Source: a virus. Taken from it: a stretch of DNA of 20,682 nt. Shown piece by piece: positions 2,432 through 15,778 of the stretch (within the stretch, counting starts at the first letter, position 1; the number at the start of each line of letters is the position of its first letter). The position numbers were made by a program, and so were the translations under genes. The stretch is from the IMG/VR virus record IMGVR_UViG_3300010883_000648, positions 1 through 20,682 of that record, one strand, 5' to 3'. The notes below the pieces were generated by a model that was not told the DNA's origin, did not search any database, and worked only from the letters and a program-made list of their open reading frames with translations.

Positions 2432-2440
2432 CTAATCTGT

Positions 2441-2464
2441 AGCCCCTGTCTACATGAGGGGGCT
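2441..2464 (+). other. Leader stem-loop before the DUF932 gene
   Basis: AGCCCC (2441-2446) pairs perfectly with GGGGCT (2459-2464) across a 12-base loop. There is no T-run after it, so it is not an intrinsic terminator. It ends 8 bases before the AAGGAG ribosome site and could affect translation or mRNA stability. Confidence 0.4.
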
Positions 2465-2485
2465 GCTCATTCAAGGAGATTTACC

Positions 2486-3550
2486 ATGAAGCAAGGAAAA
2501 CAATCCATCGTAGAGTTAGCTAAAGAAATCCAACGCCAAGCTGATAGCAAGGTAGACTATATTGCACCAGCTAAGAGAATGGAGGTGATAGCTAATGGTA
2601 GTGTCAGTCTTATGCTGGACAGAAGTGATGTCACTAACAAGATACCTCTCAATCATATCGCATCACGTCAGCTTGGTGACAAGGTAGGTATACCAGCTAA
2701 GTACTTCGATAGGATGTTGAGTGATGCACCTGACTTGTTCGCTACCAACGTGAATCATTGGTTGGGAAATTCTAATGCCAACCATATGATACGTACACTT
2801 GATGGTGATGTACGTGCTGTGTTGTCAGACAGATACCAACGTATAGATAACATAGACATAGGCAATGAGATCTTACCTATCCTAATGAATAGTTTAAGTG
2901 GGCTAGAGATAGCATCATGTGAGATAACAGAGAAGAAGATGTACATTAAAGCTATCATGCCTCAGATGCAGGCTGATGTGAAGGTAGGTGACACGGTGCA
3001 AGCAGGCATCAGCATTACTAACAGTGAGATAGGTCATGGTATGTTTGAGGTAGCCCCATTCATTATGAGATTGGTATGCCTCAATGGTATGAAGGTGAAT
3101 GATGCCGCGTTTGGTAGACGACACCTTGGTGCACGTACTGATGTCAATGACGCAGTGTACAACGTGCTATCCAATGAGACCTTGAAGGCTGATGACAAAG
3201 CATTCATGTTGAAGGCACGTGATGTAGTAACAGCAGCGTTTGAGGAAAAATTATTCTTACAACATGTTGATGCACTACGTCAGACAACGGAGCGTAAGAT
3301 CTTAGGCAACCCAGTGAAGGCAGTCGAAGTGTTAGCTAAGAATAACGGCTTGCTACAGGGTGAACAGGATGGTATACTCCGCAAATTAATTGAGGGTGCT
3401 GACCTTAGCCAGTACGGTATGGTTCAGGCAGTGACAGCCTTCAGTCAAGATGTTCAATCATACGATAGGGCTAGTGACTTCGAGGAGTTGGGTGGTAAGA
3501 TAGTTACCCTGACTGACCAAGAGTGGAAGCCTATTGCAGTAGCAGCGTGA
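2486..3550 (+). CDS. DUF932-family phage/plasmid protein
   Basis: This 354-aa protein has the overall pattern of DUF932: a short helical N-terminus, a start region with RMEVIANG and ASRQLGDKVGIPAKYFDRM, then an LDGDVRAVLSDRYQRIDN segment near residue 105-122, and FIMRLVCLNGM near residue 193. The family is common in phages and plasmids and has no established biochemical role. It is often found near recombination and ssDNA-handling genes, which fits the recombinase gene 400 bases downstream. AAGGAG at 2473-2478 supports the start. Confidence 0.75.
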   Translation: MKQGKQSIVELAKEIQRQADSKVDYIAPAKRMEVIANGSVSLMLDRSDVTNKIPLNHIASRQLGDKVGIPAKYFDRMLSDAPDLFATNVNHWLGNSNANHMIRTLDGDVRAVLSDRYQRIDNIDIGNEILPILMNSLSGLEIASCEITEKKMYIKAIMPQMQADVKVGDTVQAGISITNSEIGHGMFEVAPFIMRLVCLNGMKVNDAAFGRRHLGARTDVNDAVYNVLSNETLKADDKAFMLKARDVVTAAFEEKLFLQHVDALRQTTERKILGNPVKAVEVLAKNNGLLQGEQDGILRKLIEGADLSQYGMVQAVTAFSQDVQSYDRASDFEELGGKIVTLTDQEWKPIAVAA

Positions 3551-3554
3551 CTAT

Positions 3555-3758
3555 ATGACAAAGGTAGAGTTCGACATGGTGGTGCGACATGCACTGATTG
3601 CCATGCATGTACATGAGGACGTAGCAGATGAAGAGATGTTAGTATCATGGAGTAATGAGTATGAACATGTCAAGGCTCTAACCCTTGAACAGTTCAAAGT
3701 TCTATGTGCTCAGGGTGTAGCAGAATATAATAAAGCCTTGAACGCTAGTAGTAATTAG
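3555..3758 (+). CDS. Small hypothetical protein (67 aa)
   Basis: It starts 4 bases after the DUF932 stop, with no clear Shine-Dalgarno, so translation is probably by re-initiation. An alternative ATG is at 3576. The product is helical and acidic, with no motif I recognise. It is the last gene before the non-coding island. Function is unknown. Confidence 0.55.
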   Translation: MTKVEFDMVVRHALIAMHVHEDVADEEMLVSWSNEYEHVKALTLEQFKVLCAQGVAEYNKALNASSN

Positions 3759-3819
3759 TTAATACATGAATCCTTTTGTATCATCTCGCATCTAACACAG
3801 CAAGAAGTAATTAGTTAAT
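3750..3819 (+). repeat. 14-bp direct repeat pair
   Basis: AGTAATTAGTTAAT occurs exactly at 3750-3763 and again at 3806-3819, a start-to-start distance of 56 bases. The first copy overlaps the end of the upstream gene and the second abuts the 9-bp inverted repeat. It could be a binding-site pair for a regulator, replication initiator or integrase. Confidence 0.6.
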
Positions 3820-3883
3820 CCCGGCAGCCACAAGGCCAACTCAATAAGCCTAATCACGCGCAAGCGGTGGTCGATGCCGGGAT
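3818..3883 (+). other. Structured inverted-repeat element, possible ncRNA or terminator
   Basis: ATCCCGGCA (3818-3826) pairs perfectly with TGCCGGGAT (3875-3883). Inside, CCAC (3828-3831) pairs with GTGG (3867-3870). Two hairpins fill the rest: GGC/GCC (3834-3836 with 3848-3850) and CGC-GCAA-GCG (3857-3866), the latter with a GNRA tetraloop. Together these make a plausible three-way junction. AACTTTT follows, so it may end upstream transcripts, but the T-run is short. It lies upstream of the 3894 promoter, so it is not in that promoter's leader. The 3759-3946 stretch holds only this, the direct repeat and the promoter. Confidence 0.5.
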
Positions 3884-3893
3884 AACTTTTATA

Positions 3894-3922
3894 TTGACAG
3901 TGATATATTGCGATGATATAAT
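3894..3922 (+). promoter_or_regulatory. Consensus sigma70 promoter
   Basis: TTGACA (3894-3899), a 17-base spacer and TATAAT (3917-3922) match the housekeeping consensus in all 12 positions at optimal spacing. Transcription would start near 3929, leaving a short leader with GGGAG at 3936-3940 before the recombinase ATG at 3947. It likely drives the recombination/sugar operon up to the terminator at 6765. Such strength suggests immediate-early expression by host RNA polymerase. Confidence 0.9.
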
Positions 3923-3946
3923 TTTAACAATCAATGGGAGTAATCA

Positions 3947-4813
3947 ATGAGCTTAACAGATCAACAACTAATAGATCGCAAGAAGGGATTGTTTGGGACA
4001 GATGCATCCATGTTGGATGAGACTAGTCCATATAACGATCCCTATTTTTTATACAAGTGCAAGCGTGGTGAGTGGGATGATAGACTTGACCCCGCCATAC
4101 ACCTTGAGCTTGGGCATGAGCTTGAAGATTATGTAGCAAGGAAGTATACAGAAAAGACTGGCATAGAAACACGGATAGATGACAACACTACTTGGAATGG
4201 TGAGTATCTATATGAGGGTAAGCCTTTCATGGGTGCTCATGTTGACAGGTGGTGTGTCGGTACAAAGAACAGCAGAATATTAGAGTGCAAGACAGCATAC
4301 ACTCGCAATAGATGGGGCAAGAATGGTAGTGGTAACATCCCCCCTAACTACCGTTCTCAAATCAAGCATTACTGCCTAGTGCTGGGCCTCCACGAAGTAG
4401 ATGTTGCTGTCTTGCACCTTCCCTTCCCTCCCACAATAGAGATTCATTCCTTTGATTTCTCGCAGATAGAACTGGATGACCTGCTCCTCAAAGAGTATGC
4501 AATCTGGGATAGAATACAGAAGGGCAACCCACCACCAGTAGGTAGCAGTGCTACCACCAATGAAAAACTTAGAGATGAATTCTCTGGTAGCATAGAGGAT
4601 AGCACTGTGTCCAGTGAGGATCTAGATGTACACCTAGAACTCATCAAGCAAGTTAAGATATGTAAGAAGGATCAGAAGGATTACGTTACTGCTGCACAGA
4701 ATAAGATCATCGCTCACATGGGTGAGTACGAGTTCTTAGTCAATGGTGATGGCGATATAGTCGCCACCTTTAAACCTGATGCTAAGGGTATCAGGAAACT
4801 TTTAATTAAATAG
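3947..4813 (+). CDS. YqaJ/lambda-exonuclease-type recombinase (PD-(D/E)XK)
   Basis: The 288-aa protein carries the lambda-exo/YqaJ fold signatures: GHELED at 56-61, Asp100 in GAHVDRW, Glu113-Cys-Lys115 in ILECKTA (the ExK catalytic pair) and YRSQIKHYCLVLG at 135-147 (motif with Gln138). Family members degrade one strand of dsDNA from ends to give 3' overhangs for strand annealing. The next gene is an ssDNA-binding protein, which supports a recombination module. The C-terminal 90 residues are helical and charged. GGGAG and a strong promoter precede it. No Erf, RecT or Beta annealase is seen in this window. Confidence 0.85.
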   Translation: MSLTDQQLIDRKKGLFGTDASMLDETSPYNDPYFLYKCKRGEWDDRLDPAIHLELGHELEDYVARKYTEKTGIETRIDDNTTWNGEYLYEGKPFMGAHVDRWCVGTKNSRILECKTAYTRNRWGKNGSGNIPPNYRSQIKHYCLVLGLHEVDVAVLHLPFPPTIEIHSFDFSQIELDDLLLKEYAIWDRIQKGNPPPVGSSATTNEKLRDEFSGSIEDSTVSSEDLDVHLELIKQVKICKKDQKDYVTAAQNKIIAHMGEYEFLVNGDGDIVATFKPDAKGIRKLLIK

Positions 4814-4823
4814 GGAGTACTCA

Positions 4824-5453
4824 ATGTCTACTAAGAAAATGCATTACTTCACACCGATTGGTACGTTCAACTATCCTTGGCTGGACAAGCCATCTAAATG
4901 GGATGCTTCAGCACGTGATGGTAAGGGTGGTAGTAAACCAGCCGACCCAACAGACTTGAATGGATCATACAGTGTTAAGCTAACCGTTGATCCTGCTGTG
5001 TTCAAGACATCAGACTTTAAGAAACAGATTGATGAGCTGTGGGATCTAGCACAGAAGACTAACAAGGGTAAGTATGATGAGACAAAGGATCCTTACTGGG
5101 CTGATGATGAAGGCAACGTATGTCTGACAGCACGTAGGCAAGCAGCCTTTCAGAAGGATGGTAAGATTCAAACGATGCGTCCTAAGTTAGAGGATTGTAC
5201 TGGACGTGACATCACTAAGTATGTAGAAGAGGAAGGTATTCAGGTCGCATCTGAATCAACGGGTAGACTAGACGTTACCACCTACGTACCAGTACCTAAG
5301 AAGAAGGATGGTGTAGCTACGCTACGTATGAACTTCGACTTAGTTAAGGCACAGTTCAAGGTGCTTAAACGCTATGAGGCTGACAAGTCTATGGCTCCCA
5401 TTGATGGGGGATCACCAGTAGGGGAGGAGCTTGGCGAAGCTATACCTTACTAA
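4824..5453 (+). CDS. T7 gp2.5-like ssDNA-binding protein
   Basis: This 209-aa protein resembles gp2.5-type OB-fold proteins: an early TPIGTFNYPWLDKPSKWD segment, GSYSVKLTVDP beta strands near 47-57, a helical insertion with DPYW, a KPxxEDCTGRDI segment, and a C-terminal part with VKAQFKVLKRYE before an acidic tail. It lacks the very long acidic tail of T7 gp2.5, but ends in a shorter acidic/Gly segment. It would coat ssDNA in replication and recombination, next to the exonuclease. The ATG follows GGGAGT, and it starts 10 bases after the upstream stop. The match rests on pattern only. Confidence 0.6.
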   Translation: MSTKKMHYFTPIGTFNYPWLDKPSKWDASARDGKGGSKPADPTDLNGSYSVKLTVDPAVFKTSDFKKQIDELWDLAQKTNKGKYDETKDPYWADDEGNVCLTARRQAAFQKDGKIQTMRPKLEDCTGRDITKYVEEEGIQVASESTGRLDVTTYVPVPKKKDGVATLRMNFDLVKAQFKVLKRYEADKSMAPIDGGSPVGEELGEAIPY

Positions 5454-6349
5454 TGAATGTTGCTCTCATAGGATGTGGTGCATGGGGAAAGAACTTAGCC
5501 CGTGTACTGTATGATAAGCGGGTGTTGCATACTGTGTGTGATGTAGCAAAGGCTACGCTAGATCATTACACCGATGTTACATATAGGAATAACTATTCTG
5601 ATGTCATCAAGGATGAGACTGTAGATGTAGTTGTTATATCCACACCCGCTATCTATCACTTCGACATGGTGATGAGAGCATTAGAAGCTAACAAGCATGT
5701 GTTCGTTGAGAAACCGCTGGCCCTCTCCTTAAAAGAGGGTCAGTTCCTCAACGCCCTAGCCAAAACAAGGGGGAAGGTATTGTTTGTTGGCCATCTATTG
5801 CATTACCACCCAGCTGTGGTAGAGATGAAGAAGATTGTAGCTGACTATGTTATTGGTGACATCAGATACATATACTCTGAACGCTTGAACGATGGTGCTA
5901 TCAGGAAAGAGGAGAGTATACTATGGTCATTCGCACCGCATGACATCTCAGTAATCCATGCCTTGATGGGTGGTGAACCATTGGAAGTTGAGGCTAGAGG
6001 TGAATGCTTTACTAACAGTGGTGTGTATGATGTCACCACTACACATATGGCATTCACTGCAAACAGACACGCTTCAATCTATGTCAACTGGCTTAACCCT
6101 ACCAAGCAACAGAAGATGACAGTGATTGGTAGTGATGGCTCGTTAGTGTTTGATGATACGGAGACGCAGAAACTTATGTTGTATAAGGATGGTGACTCCA
6201 CCGTCATGCACTGCTACCAATACGAACCATTGGTTGAAGAGGTCGAAGCTTTTATTAACGCATGTAACGGTGATGAATACTTTACTGATGGTGATGAAGC
6301 TGTCAAAGTATTACGCACCTTGGAGCTAGCATCATCATGTCTTACGTAA
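5453..6349 (+). CDS. Gfo/Idh/MocA-family sugar dehydrogenase
   Basis: The N-terminus has the Rossmann GCGAWG loop (residues 7-12), VISTPAIYH near 61-69, and the family's EKP motif (86-88) with KPLAL after it; HDIS at 163-166 is the usual substrate/catalytic region. Length (298 aa) is typical. The closest known roles are NAD-dependent oxidation of nucleotide sugars, for example C3 oxidation of UDP-GlcNAc-type sugars (WlbA/WbpB). The specific substrate is inferred from the next gene, a hexapeptide acyltransferase. It is coupled to the ssDNA-binding gene by TAATG overlap. It may alter host surface glycans; this is an inference. Confidence 0.85.
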   Translation: MNVALIGCGAWGKNLARVLYDKRVLHTVCDVAKATLDHYTDVTYRNNYSDVIKDETVDVVVISTPAIYHFDMVMRALEANKHVFVEKPLALSLKEGQFLNALAKTRGKVLFVGHLLHYHPAVVEMKKIVADYVIGDIRYIYSERLNDGAIRKEESILWSFAPHDISVIHALMGGEPLEVEARGECFTNSGVYDVTTTHMAFTANRHASIYVNWLNPTKQQKMTVIGSDGSLVFDDTETQKLMLYKDGDSTVMHCYQYEPLVEEVEAFINACNGDEYFTDGDEAVKVLRTLELASSCLT

Positions 6350-6741
6350 TACGCAGATTCTCTGAGGTGTTAGATAACTGTAACGTAGGAGACAACACTA
6401 AGATAGGTAGGTACTGTACCATTGGGCCTAACGTTACGATAGGTAAAGGCTGTAAGATACAGGATAACGTGTCAGTATACGAAGGTGTTACCATAGAAGA
6501 TGATGTCTTCATTGGCCCATCAGTTGTGTTTGCTAATGATAAGTACCCACCTAGTGGTGATAGATGGGAAACATTAATCAAGAAGGGTGCAAGCATAGGC
6601 TCCAACTGCACCATACTATGTGGTGTAACTATAGGAAAGAATACTATGATAGGAGCTGGCACTCTAGTAGTTAAGGATGTACCAGACAATGTAATACAGT
6701 ACAATAAGATTGAGCAAGTACACTATCATACGGTAGGATAG
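6337..6741 (+). CDS. Hexapeptide-repeat acyltransferase
   Basis: Nearly the whole 134-aa chain consists of left-handed beta-helix hexapeptide repeats ([LIV]-G-x-x-x-x, e.g. IGPNVTIGKGCKI, VTIGKNTMIGAGT). An FANDKYPP loop is like that of sugar-nucleotide N-acetyltransferases (WlbB/WbpD type, which use acetyl-CoA). It is shorter than typical WlbB proteins of about 190 aa. It overlaps the dehydrogenase gene by 13 bases, so the two are co-translated and probably act on the same sugar. No aminotransferase that would link the two steps is present in the window. Confidence 0.8.
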   Translation: MSYVIRRFSEVLDNCNVGDNTKIGRYCTIGPNVTIGKGCKIQDNVSVYEGVTIEDDVFIGPSVVFANDKYPPSGDRWETLIKKGASIGSNCTILCGVTIGKNTMIGAGTLVVKDVPDNVIQYNKIEQVHYHTVG

Positions 6742-6764
6742 CGTATCATGAAGTAGTTAACGGA

Positions 6765-6795
6765 GGGAGTGGCAATAATGCTGCTCCCTTTTCTT
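6765..6795 (+). terminator. Intrinsic terminator after the sugar cassette
   Basis: A 10-bp stem runs GGGAGTGGCA / TGCTGCTCCC (6765-6774 with 6779-6788) around an ATAA loop, with two internal G-U pairs, followed directly by TTTTCTT. It lies in the 76-base gap after the acyltransferase stop and should end the transcript from 3894. I see no convincing promoter between it and the next gene. Confidence 0.85.
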
Positions 6796-6817
6796 ATGCC
6801 TTAAATATGAGGGATGT

Positions 6818-7216
6818 ATGAAAATTGCAATGAGTAGTTTTGTATCTGAAGTAAAGGTGTATGCCGGAGAAGATTCATGGGAAGTTATAGGTGGTCGTCT
6901 CATTGGTAAGGTTAAGAACCTTAAGTATAAGTACACTATCACACAGGAGGAAATAAAAAAGAACTTAGATAAATCATACAAGCAATTACGTGAAACGTTT
7001 AAGAACCATAAGGGTATTGGAAACTTATTAAAGCCCATAGAGCCTAGAGATTGTGAGATATGTCAGATAACATTCACACCTGAGTTTCCTCATGCTTTCT
7101 TATGTAGTGATAAGTGTAGAGGTGAGAGAGCTAGGAATCGTGCTGGCTCTAAGACTAGGTACGTGAAGAAGGGTTACTTCCATCGTGTCAATAATAAGGA
7201 GAGCAAAAATGGCTAG
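6818..7216 (+). CDS. Zinc-ribbon protein, unknown
   Basis: This 132-aa protein has a basic helical N-terminal half and a zinc ribbon in its second half: CEIC (near 79-82) then CSDKCR (near 96-101), followed by an Arg/Lys-rich tail. The C-x2-C...C-x3-C form is common in phage DNA-associated proteins and as an accessory domain of HNH enzymes, but no HNH motif is present. GAGGGA precedes the ATG. It overlaps the region upstream of the integrase start, so the two may be co-expressed. Confidence 0.65.
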   Translation: MKIAMSSFVSEVKVYAGEDSWEVIGGRLIGKVKNLKYKYTITQEEIKKNLDKSYKQLRETFKNHKGIGNLLKPIEPRDCEICQITFTPEFPHAFLCSDKCRGERARNRAGSKTRYVKKGYFHRVNNKESKNG

Positions 7217-8339
7217 ACATAAAGAGCATACACTTAAGGTTACTAAGCGTATCGGTTCACCGTACTACCAGATATCTGGAACATACAACGGTCAACGTGT
7301 ACGCGAATCAACAGGACAAAAGACATTAGCTCGTGCTAGTATAGAGCTAGTGCGTATTATGGATGACCTTGATTGCAAGATGGATGTATCATCTACATTC
7401 AATCAGGTGTCTGATGTACACTTGTCTCTCATCACTAAGAAGACAGCCAATAAGGACTGTGAGTATTCCAAAAAACTGGGAAAATTTTTCGGGGATACTG
7501 CAATGTCTGACATAGGGTTCCGACCAAAACAATTCAAGGAACCTTTCCACCCTCTCAACCAGTACCTAATGACGAGGGCTAAGCATGACCTGTCTATCAC
7601 TACCATCAACAAAGAGCTGGCCTTCCTTAATTTGTTAGGTCAGAAGGCAGTGGTAGAGTATGGGTTACTCAAGCAGTGGACACCTGTTAGGTTAGTGGAC
7701 AGAGATGAGGCTACATTCTATGGCTTCAACCCACCGGGGCAGAAGTTAGCGTTGCAACCTGAATGGCAGGTGACATTACTTAATCACTTACCAGAATATC
7801 TAAGGGATGCAGCATTGTTCAGCATAAATACTGGCCAACGTGACTCAGTGGTGTGTAGCCTGCAGTGGGATTGGTTGGACTGTGATGGTAAGGATGCGAT
7901 GTGGCACTTCAAGGTACCAGCTTCATTCATGAAGTCAAGTCGTGAAGCATATGTTGTATTGAATGACGTAGCTACAAAAATTGTAGACAAGTACAAGGGG
8001 AACTGTTCCCCCTATGTATTTACTGACAACGCTGGATGGGCATTGACTAGTCAGCACTGCTACGCATACCGTATGGCTAGGTCTCATGCTGGAGATGTGT
8101 ACCCTGAGATACGTAACACTGACGTGCATAGTTATAAGCGCACGTTTATTACTAACCTATACAACGCTGGAGTTCCTCATGACTGGGTGCAACGGTTAGC
8201 TAATCATAAGCTACCTGATGTCACTGAGTTATATAATGTTATGGGGCCAGAGATGAGGATAACCATGCATGGTTACTTGCAACGGCTATGTAACATAACA
8301 CCAACACTTAGACTACAGAAGGGGGTTGCTAATGGATAA
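7209..8339 (+). CDS. int: Tyrosine recombinase / phage integrase
   Basis: The 376-aa protein has a tyrosine recombinase catalytic domain: Arg211 (NTGQRDSVV), Lys242 (MKSSREAYVVLN), His307 in HSYKRTF, His333 (LANHK) and the nucleophile Tyr342 (VTELY), 9 residues after His333. The second catalytic Arg (HxxR) is Lys310 here, followed by Arg311, an unusual variant. The N-terminal 60 residues look like an arm-type DNA-binding domain with basic beta strands. It would catalyse site-specific integration or dimer resolution. The ATG at 7209 follows AAGGAGAG and is preferred over an in-frame ATG at 7185 without a site. No repressor or excisionase is seen nearby. Confidence 0.85.
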   Translation: MARHKEHTLKVTKRIGSPYYQISGTYNGQRVRESTGQKTLARASIELVRIMDDLDCKMDVSSTFNQVSDVHLSLITKKTANKDCEYSKKLGKFFGDTAMSDIGFRPKQFKEPFHPLNQYLMTRAKHDLSITTINKELAFLNLLGQKAVVEYGLLKQWTPVRLVDRDEATFYGFNPPGQKLALQPEWQVTLLNHLPEYLRDAALFSINTGQRDSVVCSLQWDWLDCDGKDAMWHFKVPASFMKSSREAYVVLNDVATKIVDKYKGNCSPYVFTDNAGWALTSQHCYAYRMARSHAGDVYPEIRNTDVHSYKRTFITNLYNAGVPHDWVQRLANHKLPDVTELYNVMGPEMRITMHGYLQRLCNITPTLRLQKGVANG

Positions 8340-8505: not shown

Positions 8506-8860
8506 AACAGTACGTGATGTGATAGAGGGCTTGAAGGCTGAGTACCTACGCCACTTCGGTACGCCACATAGCAACAAGGCATACACTGAACAGAGTAAGG
8601 CGATTAAGGCTCTAATCTCCGCAGTTGGTTCGGAGAATATACTACGTACCTTTAGGTTCTTGCTCAACTGTGGTGCTGATTGGTTACAGAACGCTAAGAA
8701 TATTGGTGGTCTAATCAAATGGTATGATGCTATCCAGACTATGATGCTCAACAGTCAGATGGCTACTAAGACAGGCTCATATGCTGAGGAAACTAGGAAG
8801 CGTGAGGCTAAGGAGAAGGATAGACTAGAAGCTTTTAGAAAGGAGATGTTAGATGACTGA
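8495..8860 (+). CDS. Helicase-adjacent protein, possible helicase loader or accessory
   Basis: This 121-aa helical protein ends in a long charged helix (EETRKREAKEKDRLEAFRKEM). It sits directly before, and overlaps, the DnaB gene by 8 bases. That position is where phage helicase loaders or initiators (DnaC/lambda P/gp59 type) often lie, but it lacks a Walker motif and I recognise no family. The assignment is from position only. GTGCTGAATG gives a weak ribosome site, so translation may be coupled to the upstream small gene. Confidence 0.5.
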   Translation: METKTVRDVIEGLKAEYLRHFGTPHSNKAYTEQSKAIKALISAVGSENILRTFRFLLNCGADWLQNAKNIGGLIKWYDAIQTMMLNSQMATKTGSYAEETRKREAKEKDRLEAFRKEMLDD

Positions 8861-10190
8861 CCAACAGATACCACACTCAAGAGAAGCAGAGTACTCAGTG
8901 TTGGGTAGTATCATGCACTCACCTGAGCTAATGCCAGAGGCTATGTCACTGGCAGAGGACGAGGACTTCTTTAACACAGAGAACAGAGAGTTGTTCCAGC
9001 TGATGAAGGGGTTGTCTAAGAAGGGTACAGACATTGATGTTATAAGTTTGGCTGAACTCTACCGTAACATGGGACGTGGTCAAGATGGGCACATAGAATT
9101 TCTAAGCATCATCGAAGACTACATGCCAACAGGTAGTATGCTAGCCAACCACTGCAAGAAACTCAAGGGACTTACCATCCAACGTAAGTTCATTGACAAC
9201 ATGCAAGAGGTAATGCATAAGGCTGGCAAGATAATGGATGACCCTGTCCAACTATTAGAGGACGCACATGGGTCACTGTTCAGGCTTATGCAATCAGCTG
9301 AGTCAAACGCATCATACAAAGATGTGTATGGCCCGGAGGAAATGGCAACGCTTGGGTATGACAACGCTAAGAAAATGTTTGAATCACCTAGTGAGAATGC
9401 TGGCTATACTACTGGCCTCCCATTACTTGACAAGCATATCAAATGGCTAAAGGATTACAACCTTATCGCAGCCAGTACTGGCGTGGGTAAGACGGGGCTA
9501 GCTATTAACATAGCTCTCAACGTTGCAATGCAGAAGGCACCCATACTATACGTCAACCTTGAGATGAATATAGATGAGATCGTAACACGTATCCTATCTA
9601 TACTATCAGGGGTAGAGATGGATAAGATTGCAACGGGTGATTACGGGGAAAACCCTGAACACTTCCAACTTGTCGCTAGGTTTGCTGAAGAATTAGAGAG
9701 GCGTTCACTCTACATGTCAGACAATAAGCCTAAGACTATAGATCATATCATCAGTATGATTAACAAGTATCATGCTAAGCATGACATCAAGGTAGTAGTG
9801 ATTGATTACATTGGCCATATCTCTGATGACAGGCTAGCTTTTAAGGAGAACAATAAACGTATCACCCTTGGTAGGTATAGCCAAGCATTAAAGAATGCAT
9901 GCACTAAGCTGGGTATCAAGCTGGTCATCGTAGCCCAGATGAATAGAGAAGGTGAGAAGGAAGCAGAGATGTATAATATAGGTGAGTGTTATCAACTAGC
10001 ACAAGATGCTGACATCTTCATGATCCTATACTATGAGTGGATAACTAACGTTGACAAAGAACCGGGAGCACCCGATAAGTATAAGCAATACCTCCTCAAC
10101 TTGAGGAAGAACCGCAACGGGCCAGCTCCTCGCATCATCAAGCTTAACTACAATGAACGTACACAACTTATAACGGAAGGCGAGATATGA
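8853..10190 (+). CDS. dnaB: Replicative DNA helicase, DnaB family
   Basis: The 445-aa protein has the DnaB N-terminal collar (HSREAEYSVLGSIM and DFFNTENRELF near 8-50) and a RecA-like C-domain with Walker A AASTGVGKT (206-214), Walker B VVVID (314-318) and AQMNRE (361-366) with the Gln switch. It unwinds DNA 5' to 3' at the phage fork as a hexamer. AAGGAGATG precedes the ATG, which overlaps the upstream gene. No primase domain (TOPRIM) is present, unlike T7 gp4, so primase must be host or elsewhere in the genome. Confidence 0.92.
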   Translation: MTDQQIPHSREAEYSVLGSIMHSPELMPEAMSLAEDEDFFNTENRELFQLMKGLSKKGTDIDVISLAELYRNMGRGQDGHIEFLSIIEDYMPTGSMLANHCKKLKGLTIQRKFIDNMQEVMHKAGKIMDDPVQLLEDAHGSLFRLMQSAESNASYKDVYGPEEMATLGYDNAKKMFESPSENAGYTTGLPLLDKHIKWLKDYNLIAASTGVGKTGLAINIALNVAMQKAPILYVNLEMNIDEIVTRILSILSGVEMDKIATGDYGENPEHFQLVARFAEELERRSLYMSDNKPKTIDHIISMINKYHAKHDIKVVVIDYIGHISDDRLAFKENNKRITLGRYSQALKNACTKLGIKLVIVAQMNREGEKEAEMYNIGECYQLAQDADIFMILYYEWITNVDKEPGAPDKYKQYLLNLRKNRNGPAPRIIKLNYNERTQLITEGEI

Positions 10191-11454: not shown

Positions 11455-11850
11455 ATGAGCAAAGCCAGTAGAGATAAGGGTCAGCGTGGTGAGCGTGAAG
11501 TATGCAAACTATTAGAGGGCCACTTAGGTATAGCATTCAAGCGTAACCTAATGCAGACAGCTGAAGGTGGGCATGATGTGTTGGGCTTGGATGGCTGTGC
11601 TATTGAAGTGAAACGATGTGAGAAGTTAGCATTAGAAAAGTGGTGGAAGCAAACAGTAACTCAGGCTAAGGATGTTAGTGCACTGCCAGTGTTATTCTTT
11701 AGGCGCAACAGTGAAGAATGGACGGTGGCTGTACCAACGTTCACGCTTATGAATTGGATCACGCTACCCATGGACAATCATTACTCACTCATGTCAGTTA
11801 CGCAGTTCACCCAATTCTATAGCCAACTAAAAGCTAAGGGAGGATTGTGA
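11455..11850 (+). CDS. PD-(D/E)XK Holliday junction resolvase-like nuclease
   Basis: This 131-aa protein has the small PD-(D/E)XK layout of archaeal-type Hjc-like resolvases: KGQRGEREV near 8-16 with Glu14, Asp41 (GGHDVLG) and Glu51-Val-Lys53 (AIEVKRCE), then a helix and VLFFRR beta strand. It would cut branched DNA during replication or before packaging. It follows the previous gene by 3 bases; a GGAGG site lies about 11 bases upstream. Confidence 0.8.
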   Translation: MSKASRDKGQRGEREVCKLLEGHLGIAFKRNLMQTAEGGHDVLGLDGCAIEVKRCEKLALEKWWKQTVTQAKDVSALPVLFFRRNSEEWTVAVPTFTLMNWITLPMDNHYSLMSVTQFTQFYSQLKAKGGL

Positions 11851-12716: not shown

Positions 12717-13436
12717 TTATATAACCTCGCAGCATATATCCCCGAAGAATGTCCCACCGCAAGCAGAACTTAAGCCTACTATCTTCTTTGCCATAGGTAC
12801 GGCAGCAGTATAGGCTTCCTCAAACTCAGGCTGGAAGGCGCACTCATCTGATACCACTAAGCTAGCAGTACGTGAGCGAATGATGTGTGCCCCTTCTGGT
12901 ATTCCATGAGCAATACTCCCGTTCCCGAATCTCATCTTAGCATAACTAGTATCAACTGGTACCATCTCCTTTAACCAATCAGGTAGATGGTGATATACGA
13001 ATGACATCCTAGCATTCTCCATCTTCTTATCAAACACTAGGGCTGCAGCATCCTCCTCCTTCTTTGACTGTATGAACACAGCCTGATGTGGATGGAATAG
13101 GCATAGCCATAACGAATAGAGCACAGCTACCCATGACATCATGATCTGTCTGCTCTTAGGTATGAACAGTCGATCCGATTCATGGATAACTTCTATGATC
13201 TTACGCAAGTAAGGCTTATCAGGGAAAGGTTTCATCGGTGAGTCAGTGTCATGCTCATCCTTTGTCATGACATAGCCAGAGAAGATGAAATTATTTGGGT
13301 GGGCTATCCAATCCTTTAGCAACAGGAGCTTGTGGAGTTCCTGTAATGAGTCCGAAGATAGCCGACTCAAGCCCTTCGTTAGTAAGTCCTTGTCCATTCC
13401 CCGCAATGAGGTGAGCGTGTTTAGCTGGTTTGTCAT
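12717..13436 (-). CDS. Terminase large subunit, ATPase half only
   Basis: The 239-aa product has the TerL ATPase domain: an N-terminal LLLLKDWIAHP and VMTKDEHD segment, Walker A-like PKSRQIMMSW (93-102), FIQSKKEEDAA, Walker B LVVSDECAF (193-201, Asp197/Glu198) and motif III GLSSA (221-225). It stops 14 residues later, where a normal TerL continues into the nuclease domain. That nuclease half is encoded by another gene 1.46 kb upstream in transcription order (14900-15778). The ATG at 13436 overlaps the small-subunit gene by 146 bases and lacks a clear ribosome site; ATG at 13397 is an alternative. TerL family resemblance begins near residue 31. Confidence 0.85.
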   Translation of the reverse strand: MTNQLNTLTSLRGMDKDLLTKGLSRLSSDSLQELHKLLLLKDWIAHPNNFIFSGYVMTKDEHDTDSPMKPFPDKPYLRKIIEVIHESDRLFIPKSRQIMMSWVAVLYSLWLCLFHPHQAVFIQSKKEEDAAALVFDKKMENARMSFVYHHLPDWLKEMVPVDTSYAKMRFGNGSIAHGIPEGAHIIRSRTASLVVSDECAFQPEFEEAYTAAVPMAKKIVGLSSACGGTFFGDICCEVI

Positions 13437-14899: not shown

Positions 14900-15778
14900 C
14901 TAGTATACTATGTGGCGTGAGGTATCAAAGCTATCCACCTTATCAGCCATCCAATTAGATGAAAGCATCTTGAATAAATACTTAACTGCATCAATGCTAT
15001 GGTTATTCTTGTCAATCATAGTTTCCTTTACGTTTCTACTCTGCCCAGTGCTGTTACTCCACTCGTTATACCTCCACTGACTCATCTCCCTGTAATGATT
15101 GGGACATGACTTTGTAATTCTATACCTTGGTTGCCAATCCTTATCCTTCCCGTTGAACCCACCCCAATACTGTTCGTTAACCATCTCAGCAAACTGTACG
15201 TCTCCTCCCCTAGTGCCCTTGATAAAGTGAACACCTTGCTCAGCAAATAAAGATGCTGGACTAACTAGGTCACCTCCGTCACCCTTCTCTTGAGTAGCTG
15301 TCCACATACTTGGATCTGCTACTATCCATTCCAACCTATCAAAGTATTTACAATCTAGGATAGCCTCTGATGTGGTGATGTACCCTGACTTCTTCCTGTA
15401 AAATTCAAAGACAGCATAGTAGTCATCAACCTTAGTGTCATGCGCTATCACCACAAACGCTGTGATACCACGCCCAGCATAATCGAATCCACCATACAAC
15501 TTCCAGTCTTCAGGTATTGATTTCCATACAGGGATCTCAATGCGTGGCCTATGCTTCAACATGTCAGGGAACACTAGCTGTCCACCCTGTGCATCGAAAT
15601 CAATCTCCATTTCTCTTCGCCACTTAGCACCTATCACACCACCGGGATAGCCTACCAGTGACTTGGCCATCCACTGCTTACCATTCGGAGTTGTAATATC
15701 CTTGTCAGGATCTGCAGTGTAATGAATGCGTAGCACCCTTACACCATCACTTGTTACGTAATCATTAATTCCCTGCAC
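14900..15778 (-). CDS. Terminase large subunit, nuclease half only
   Basis: This 292-aa protein is a TerL C-terminal RNase-H-like nuclease: an opening VRVLRIHYTADPDKD segment, WRREMEIDF near 53-61, then Asp99 (GGFDYAGRG), Asp155 (VADPSMW) and Asp263 (HSIDAVKYLF) as the metal-binding acidic residues. It has no Walker motifs. It begins at GTG 15778 with GGAG about 10 bases upstream inside the end of the LPD38 gene, overlapping that gene by 14 bases. It would cut concatemers to unit genomes but needs the ATPase half encoded at 12717-13436. Why the halves are separated and in swapped order is discussed in the findings. Confidence 0.85.
   Translation of the reverse strand: MQGINDYVTSDGVRVLRIHYTADPDKDITTPNGKQWMAKSLVGYPGGVIGAKWRREMEIDFDAQGGQLVFPDMLKHRPRIEIPVWKSIPEDWKLYGGFDYAGRGITAFVVIAHDTKVDDYYAVFEFYRKKSGYITTSEAILDCKYFDRLEWIVADPSMWTATQEKGDGGDLVSPASLFAEQGVHFIKGTRGGDVQFAEMVNEQYWGGFNGKDKDWQPRYRITKSCPNHYREMSQWRYNEWSNSTGQSRNVKETMIDKNNHSIDAVKYLFKMLSSNWMADKVDSFDTSRHIVY

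Follow-up and report, generated by a model that had tools for sequence, protein, structure and literature searches.

The window, a linear piece of viral DNA 20,682 bases long, carries on its plus strand two groups of genes that are separated by its longest gene-free gap (3759-3946, 188 nt). A peptidase-like gene, a DUF932 gene and a small ORF lie upstream of this gap, and the genes for a YqaJ/RecE-like exonuclease, an SSB/annealing-type protein, an integrase and DnaB lie downstream (Table 1). The gap contains the second copy of a 14-bp direct repeat, a 66-nt hairpin element and a sigma-70 promoter, and the first copy of the repeat begins within the final codons of the small ORF. Just two other gaps in the window are longer than 50 nt; the initial annotation had described a genome with little other non-coding DNA. 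The same annotation had treated the whole of 3750-3883 as non-coding; this holds from 3759 onwards, as positions 3750-3758 are the final codons of the small ORF. All three gaps of more than 50 nt contain a hairpin. Comparison of the whole window with phage records by megablast gave zero matches.

Table 1. Positions of the features discussed (window coordinates unless another record is named).
Feature	Position	Strand	Remarks
Peptidase-like gene		+	In the unit upstream of DUF932
Boundary hairpin	2439-2466	+	In the 54-nt gap before DUF932; comparable to the 66-nt element
DUF932 gene	2486-3550	+	
Small ORF, 67 aa	3555-3758	+	Final gene of the upstream unit; homologues likewise placed in relatives
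Repeat copy 1	3750-3763	+	Includes the small-ORF stop TAG (3756-3758)
Spacer between repeats	3764-3805	+	Reads ILLYHLASNTAR in the frame of the copy-2 stop
Repeat copy 2	3806-3819	+	TAG at 3812-3814 ends 3 nt before the stem, as in relatives
66-nt hairpin element	3818-3883	+	9-bp closing stem, 5-bp inner stem, branched apex
Weak T-rich tail AACTTTTAT	3884-3892	+	Directly 3' of the stem
Sigma-70 promoter, YqaJ operon	3894-3922	+	TTGACA-17-TATAAT, 12/12, extended -10
YqaJ/RecE-like exonuclease	3947-4813	+	Opens the downstream unit
SSB/annealing-type protein	4824-5453	+	
Terminator-like hairpin	6762-6790	+	GGGAG..CTCCC then TTTTCTTAT; in the 76-nt gap 6742-6817; good T-tail
Integrase	7185-8339	+	
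DnaB	8853-10190	+	
Apparently split terminase genes, window	12717-13436, 14900-15778	-	
Apparently split terminase genes, L115	107-1006 and 3123-3842		
Apparently split terminase genes, L117	272-1150 and 2471-3199		

Fold of the 66-nt element

The outer stem of the element (ATCCCGGCA/TGCCGGGAT, 3818-3826/3875-3883) was found to have nine perfect pairs, six of them G-C. It is followed by an inner stem (3827-3831/3867-3871) of four Watson-Crick pairs and one G-U, and by two small hairpins, one at 3833-3836/3848-3851 with an 11-nt loop and the other at 3857-3859/3864-3866 with a GCAA loop. Every part of the architecture proposed earlier (66 bases, a perfect 9-bp stem, an inner 4-bp stem, two hairpins and the GCAA loop) was recovered. 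The outer stem is the sole perfect 9-bp stem in the window with at least six G/C (loop up to 60 nt); such stems are expected 0.13 times per shuffled window, and the probability of one in the gap is about 0.001.

The minimum free energy of the element is -30.3 kcal/mol with a z-score of -4.3 (76-nt stretch, 200 shuffles), which ranks it 8th by energy and about 7th by z-score among all 72-76-nt windows of both strands. The equally well-folding windows of this phage lie mostly inside genes, and the stability of the element by itself is unexceptional. When the outer stem was kept fixed, 4% of the shuffled interiors folded as well, and this fraction was 7% when the outer and inner stems were both fixed. 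We therefore accept the outer stem, which beats chance, whereas the three-way junction inside it is unproven and hardly above chance (P 0.04-0.07). The argument that several separated stems make chance less likely thus contributes little. Low folding energy combined with a branched fold should be read with caution as weak evidence for a functional RNA, because several per cent of the shuffles match the interior and coding windows fold as well.

The nine-base tail following the stem opens with AAC and has five T after it; the U-rich run starts 3 nt past the stem and has only four consecutive U. The terminator scan of the window missed the element, whose loop exceeds what the scan pattern allows. 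The element ends 10 nt upstream of the promoter, which is the best-scoring one in the window, as had been claimed at the outset. Owing to this upstream position, YqaJ-operon transcripts that start at that promoter do not have the element as their 5' UTR.

The direct repeat and the end of the small gene

Two exact copies of the 14-bp repeat AGTAATTAGTTAAT were confirmed, as initially reported, and they sit within a 20-nt pair of 90% identity with 56-bp spacing. A 14-mer repeat occurs in 0.06% of shuffles of the 247-nt stretch, and the window has no third copy with up to two mismatches allowed. Copy 2 shares its last bases with the first two bases of the hairpin stem and translates as Ser-Asn-stop, and each of the seven small-ORF homologues (7/7) ends in Asn-stop. 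The stem begins 59 nt past the true stop of the small ORF and 3 nt past the TAG of copy 2. Further, the 12 codons ahead of the copy-2 stop resemble the C-terminus of the homologue in the related locus L085 (VLMYNQSNNSLNN). Among shuffles, 0.4% equal the best match that these codons have to any of the seven homologues (P 0.004), and the mean match of the codons over the small-ORF family is not significant (P 0.10).

The Asn-stop in all homologues, the stop-to-stem spacing of the family and the L085-like codons together suggest that the 14-bp repeat probably arose when the 3' end of the small gene was duplicated. The spacer would be a probable remnant of another allele of that gene. The small gene may have been swapped for another allele by recombination, with the old 3' end staying joined to the hairpin, and such a history of allele replacement, for which the support is moderate, is likely for the repeat. 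The small ORF has no Pfam or PHROG match. It evolves fast and is kept in relatives between DUF932 and the boundary hairpin.

The same slot in related phages

Relatives were recovered with DUF932 and YqaJ as protein queries. The gene order DUF932, small ORF, slot, YqaJ exonuclease and SSB is conserved in six distinct related loci, one of which has an extra gene. The proteins of L043/L039 are about 65% identical to those of the window, and the identity is 75% for YqaJ of L081, 60% for L085 and about 40% for L040-L042. The search for small-ORF homologues gave matches in L043, L041, L081, L085 and L038 only; for L042 and L040 (the latter not included in that search) the homology is judged from where the ORF lies and from its similar start.

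In five of the six related loci a GC-rich hairpin was found 1-4 nt past the stop of the small ORF. These hairpins are ATGGGGGC-TTCG-GCCCCCAT in L043/L039, GGGGGG..CCCCCC-TTTTA in L085, AGAGCCACC..GGTGGCTCT-TTCGTTT in L041, GTGGGGGTTGG..CAGCCCCCAC in L042 and GGGGGTTGGTC-AAGC-GACCAGCCCTC in L081. They are simple, unbranched and without sequence similarity to the window element, and the fold z-scores of the slot range from -2.1 to -3.6 (L043, L085, L041 and L042). A promoter-like pair lies within about 10 nt past the hairpin in L043 and L085 (TTGACT, TTGACC...TATAAT), an arrangement also present in the window. The slot of L040 has no hairpin, L081 has an additional gene between the slot hairpin and the YqaJ promoter, and the upstream arrangement differs in L084, L087 and L088.

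The sole other homologous copy of the element, in the 98.4% identical strain L038, is identical to it. The whole 1.5-kb block from 2878 to 4423 is identical between the two, so that this identity is no sign of special constraint, and element-specific conservation was rejected. An exact 16-mer (CCCGGCAGCCACAAGG) gave 35 matches in IMG/VR, which beyond the near-identical contig are isolated, about 16-20 nt long and without wider similarity. The hairpin in the gap before DUF932 is retained in L038 despite changes on both of its arms. A hypervariable patch (2351-2473) separates the window from L038 at a small-ORF end and the gap before DUF932, and it is likely to represent a recombination boundary.

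Possible roles of the element

An integrase attachment site (attP) or a replication origin had been among the initial proposals, and an integrase gene nearby together with direct repeats and an inverted repeat could be taken in their favour. A phage attP site shares a short identity with a host locus, usually the 3' end of a tRNA gene, and adjoins the integrase gene. The integrase gene is however separated from the element by 3.3 kb and by other genes, the window has no tRNA-like T-arm motif, and relatives with the same integrase type carry unrelated short hairpins in the slot. An iteron-type origin, for which several direct repeats and a skew switch would be expected, is opposed by the presence of just two repeat copies and by the GC skew, which tracks the coding strand and changes sign solely near 12.7 kb, not at the element. 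Bacterial genomes searched with the YqaJ and integrase proteins gave no relative, hence no host junction could be read. Both roles are considered highly improbable.

A dedicated structured RNA, in which the three-way junction matters, is quite unlikely. Such a cis-regulator or processed small RNA could for example bind a protein or act as an attenuator where the upstream operon ends, and the low folding energy, the branched fold with its GCAA loop beside a key operon and the two near-palindromic repeat copies, which could pair mutually, are compatible with it. The ease with which shuffled interiors match the fold, the plain hairpins of the relatives and the position upstream of the promoter argue the other way. 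The suggested comparison with Rfam matched no known family: there was no match at the gathering threshold, and up to E 10 only a spurious snoRNA (E 9.7) appeared. A twister-sister-like ribozyme was considered and dropped as cmscan gave no such match, and no tRNA or tmRNA was found. It is very unlikely that a phage-specific branched RNA with a three-way junction has taken the place of the plain terminator hairpin at this operon boundary and works there in regulated termination or as a processed small RNA.

The stem could also be functionless, an inverted repeat that arose by chance or persists as a relic in a gene-replacement gap. The gap looks recombination-scarred, with its repeat and remnant, windows within genes fold equally well, and the identity to L038 lies in a wholly identical block. 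Against this stand the rarity of such a stem in the gap (about 0.1%) and in the window, and the occupation of the same slot by hairpins in most of the relatives, which make a functionless hairpin rather improbable. An RNA processing or stability signal (an RNase III site or an exonuclease barrier), which would shape the 3' terminus of the upstream transcript and leave transcription running, is unlikely too, even though the strong stem and weak U-tract would suit it. T7-type RNase III stems in phage messages form long, almost uninterrupted duplexes that contain an internal bubble; the element resembles them as a structured boundary between phage transcription units and differs from them in having 9 + 5 pairs. 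Among the hairpins predicted at bacterial 3' ends, those that lack a U-tract form a recognised class (PMC7406221), which agrees with a processing signal. The better T-tail in L085 and L041 favours termination.

We consider it probable that the element is a terminator-like hairpin at a transcription-unit boundary, with an enlarged loop and a weak U-tract, because a simple hairpin occupies this slot in the relatives. The terminator option of the initial annotation is thus supported by the position in relatives, and the large apical part and weak U-tract speak against it. Like a canonical intrinsic terminator, the element has a GC-rich stem (at least 5 pairs in the canonical type, 9 perfect ones here) and stands after the last gene of a unit and before the next promoter. 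It is unlike one in that 48 nt lie within the closing stem and are branched, whereas the canonical loop has 3-8 nt, and in that its U-rich run starts 3 nt past the stem, whereas the canonical (L-shaped) type has a U-tract directly after it. For its large apical part and weak U-tract, the element is not filed as a canonical intrinsic terminator. The I-shaped class of WebGeSTer comprises hairpin terminators without a U-tract (PMC7406221), which may or may not terminate on their own. It shares with the element a strong stem that closes a unit and lacks a good U-tract; the loop of the element is large, whereas the predictions in PMC7406221 have a maximum loop of 8. Branched terminators had no match in the literature searched.

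The element most likely works like an intrinsic terminator, judged from its position. RNA polymerase on the upstream plus-strand operon (the peptidase-like gene to DUF932 and the small ORF) would transcribe the stem, and the stem would end or trim the upstream message just past its last gene. It may also insulate the strong promoter, from which the recombination, integration and replication operon (YqaJ, SSB, integrase and DnaB) would start. The slot is probably kept for some GC-rich hairpin and not for one particular sequence, and the large branched loop may be tolerated or neutral. We infer actual termination at the element and the extents of the operons. The weak and displaced U-tract (AACUUUUAU), an apical part far above canonical terminator size, comparable folding energies inside genes, the slot of L040 without a hairpin, the different upstream arrangement in L084, L087 and L088 and the additional gene in L081 all count against a boundary hairpin. 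The most likely explanation of the element is an ordinary one. The element would mark the border of two transcription units in a family of YqaJ/DUF932 phages that has received little study, in which the slot retains a hairpin while its sequence turns over.

Other features of the window

Between the SSB and integrase genes, positions 5453-6741 hold a GFO/IDH/MocA-type oxidoreductase followed by a hexapeptide-repeat acyltransferase, which look like a captured sugar-modification pair. A putative PDDEXK endonuclease (PF24608) is located at 11455-11850.

The large terminase appears to be split into two genes in swapped order. The nuclease-like gene is upstream and the ATPase-like gene, ending in ...GGTFFGDI..EVI*, comes last. 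The ATPase-like gene was found to be gp17-like by phmmer and a terminase by PHROGs, and its ORF is equal in length across the seven related records (7/7). In four other records, too, the nuclease has a gene of its own.
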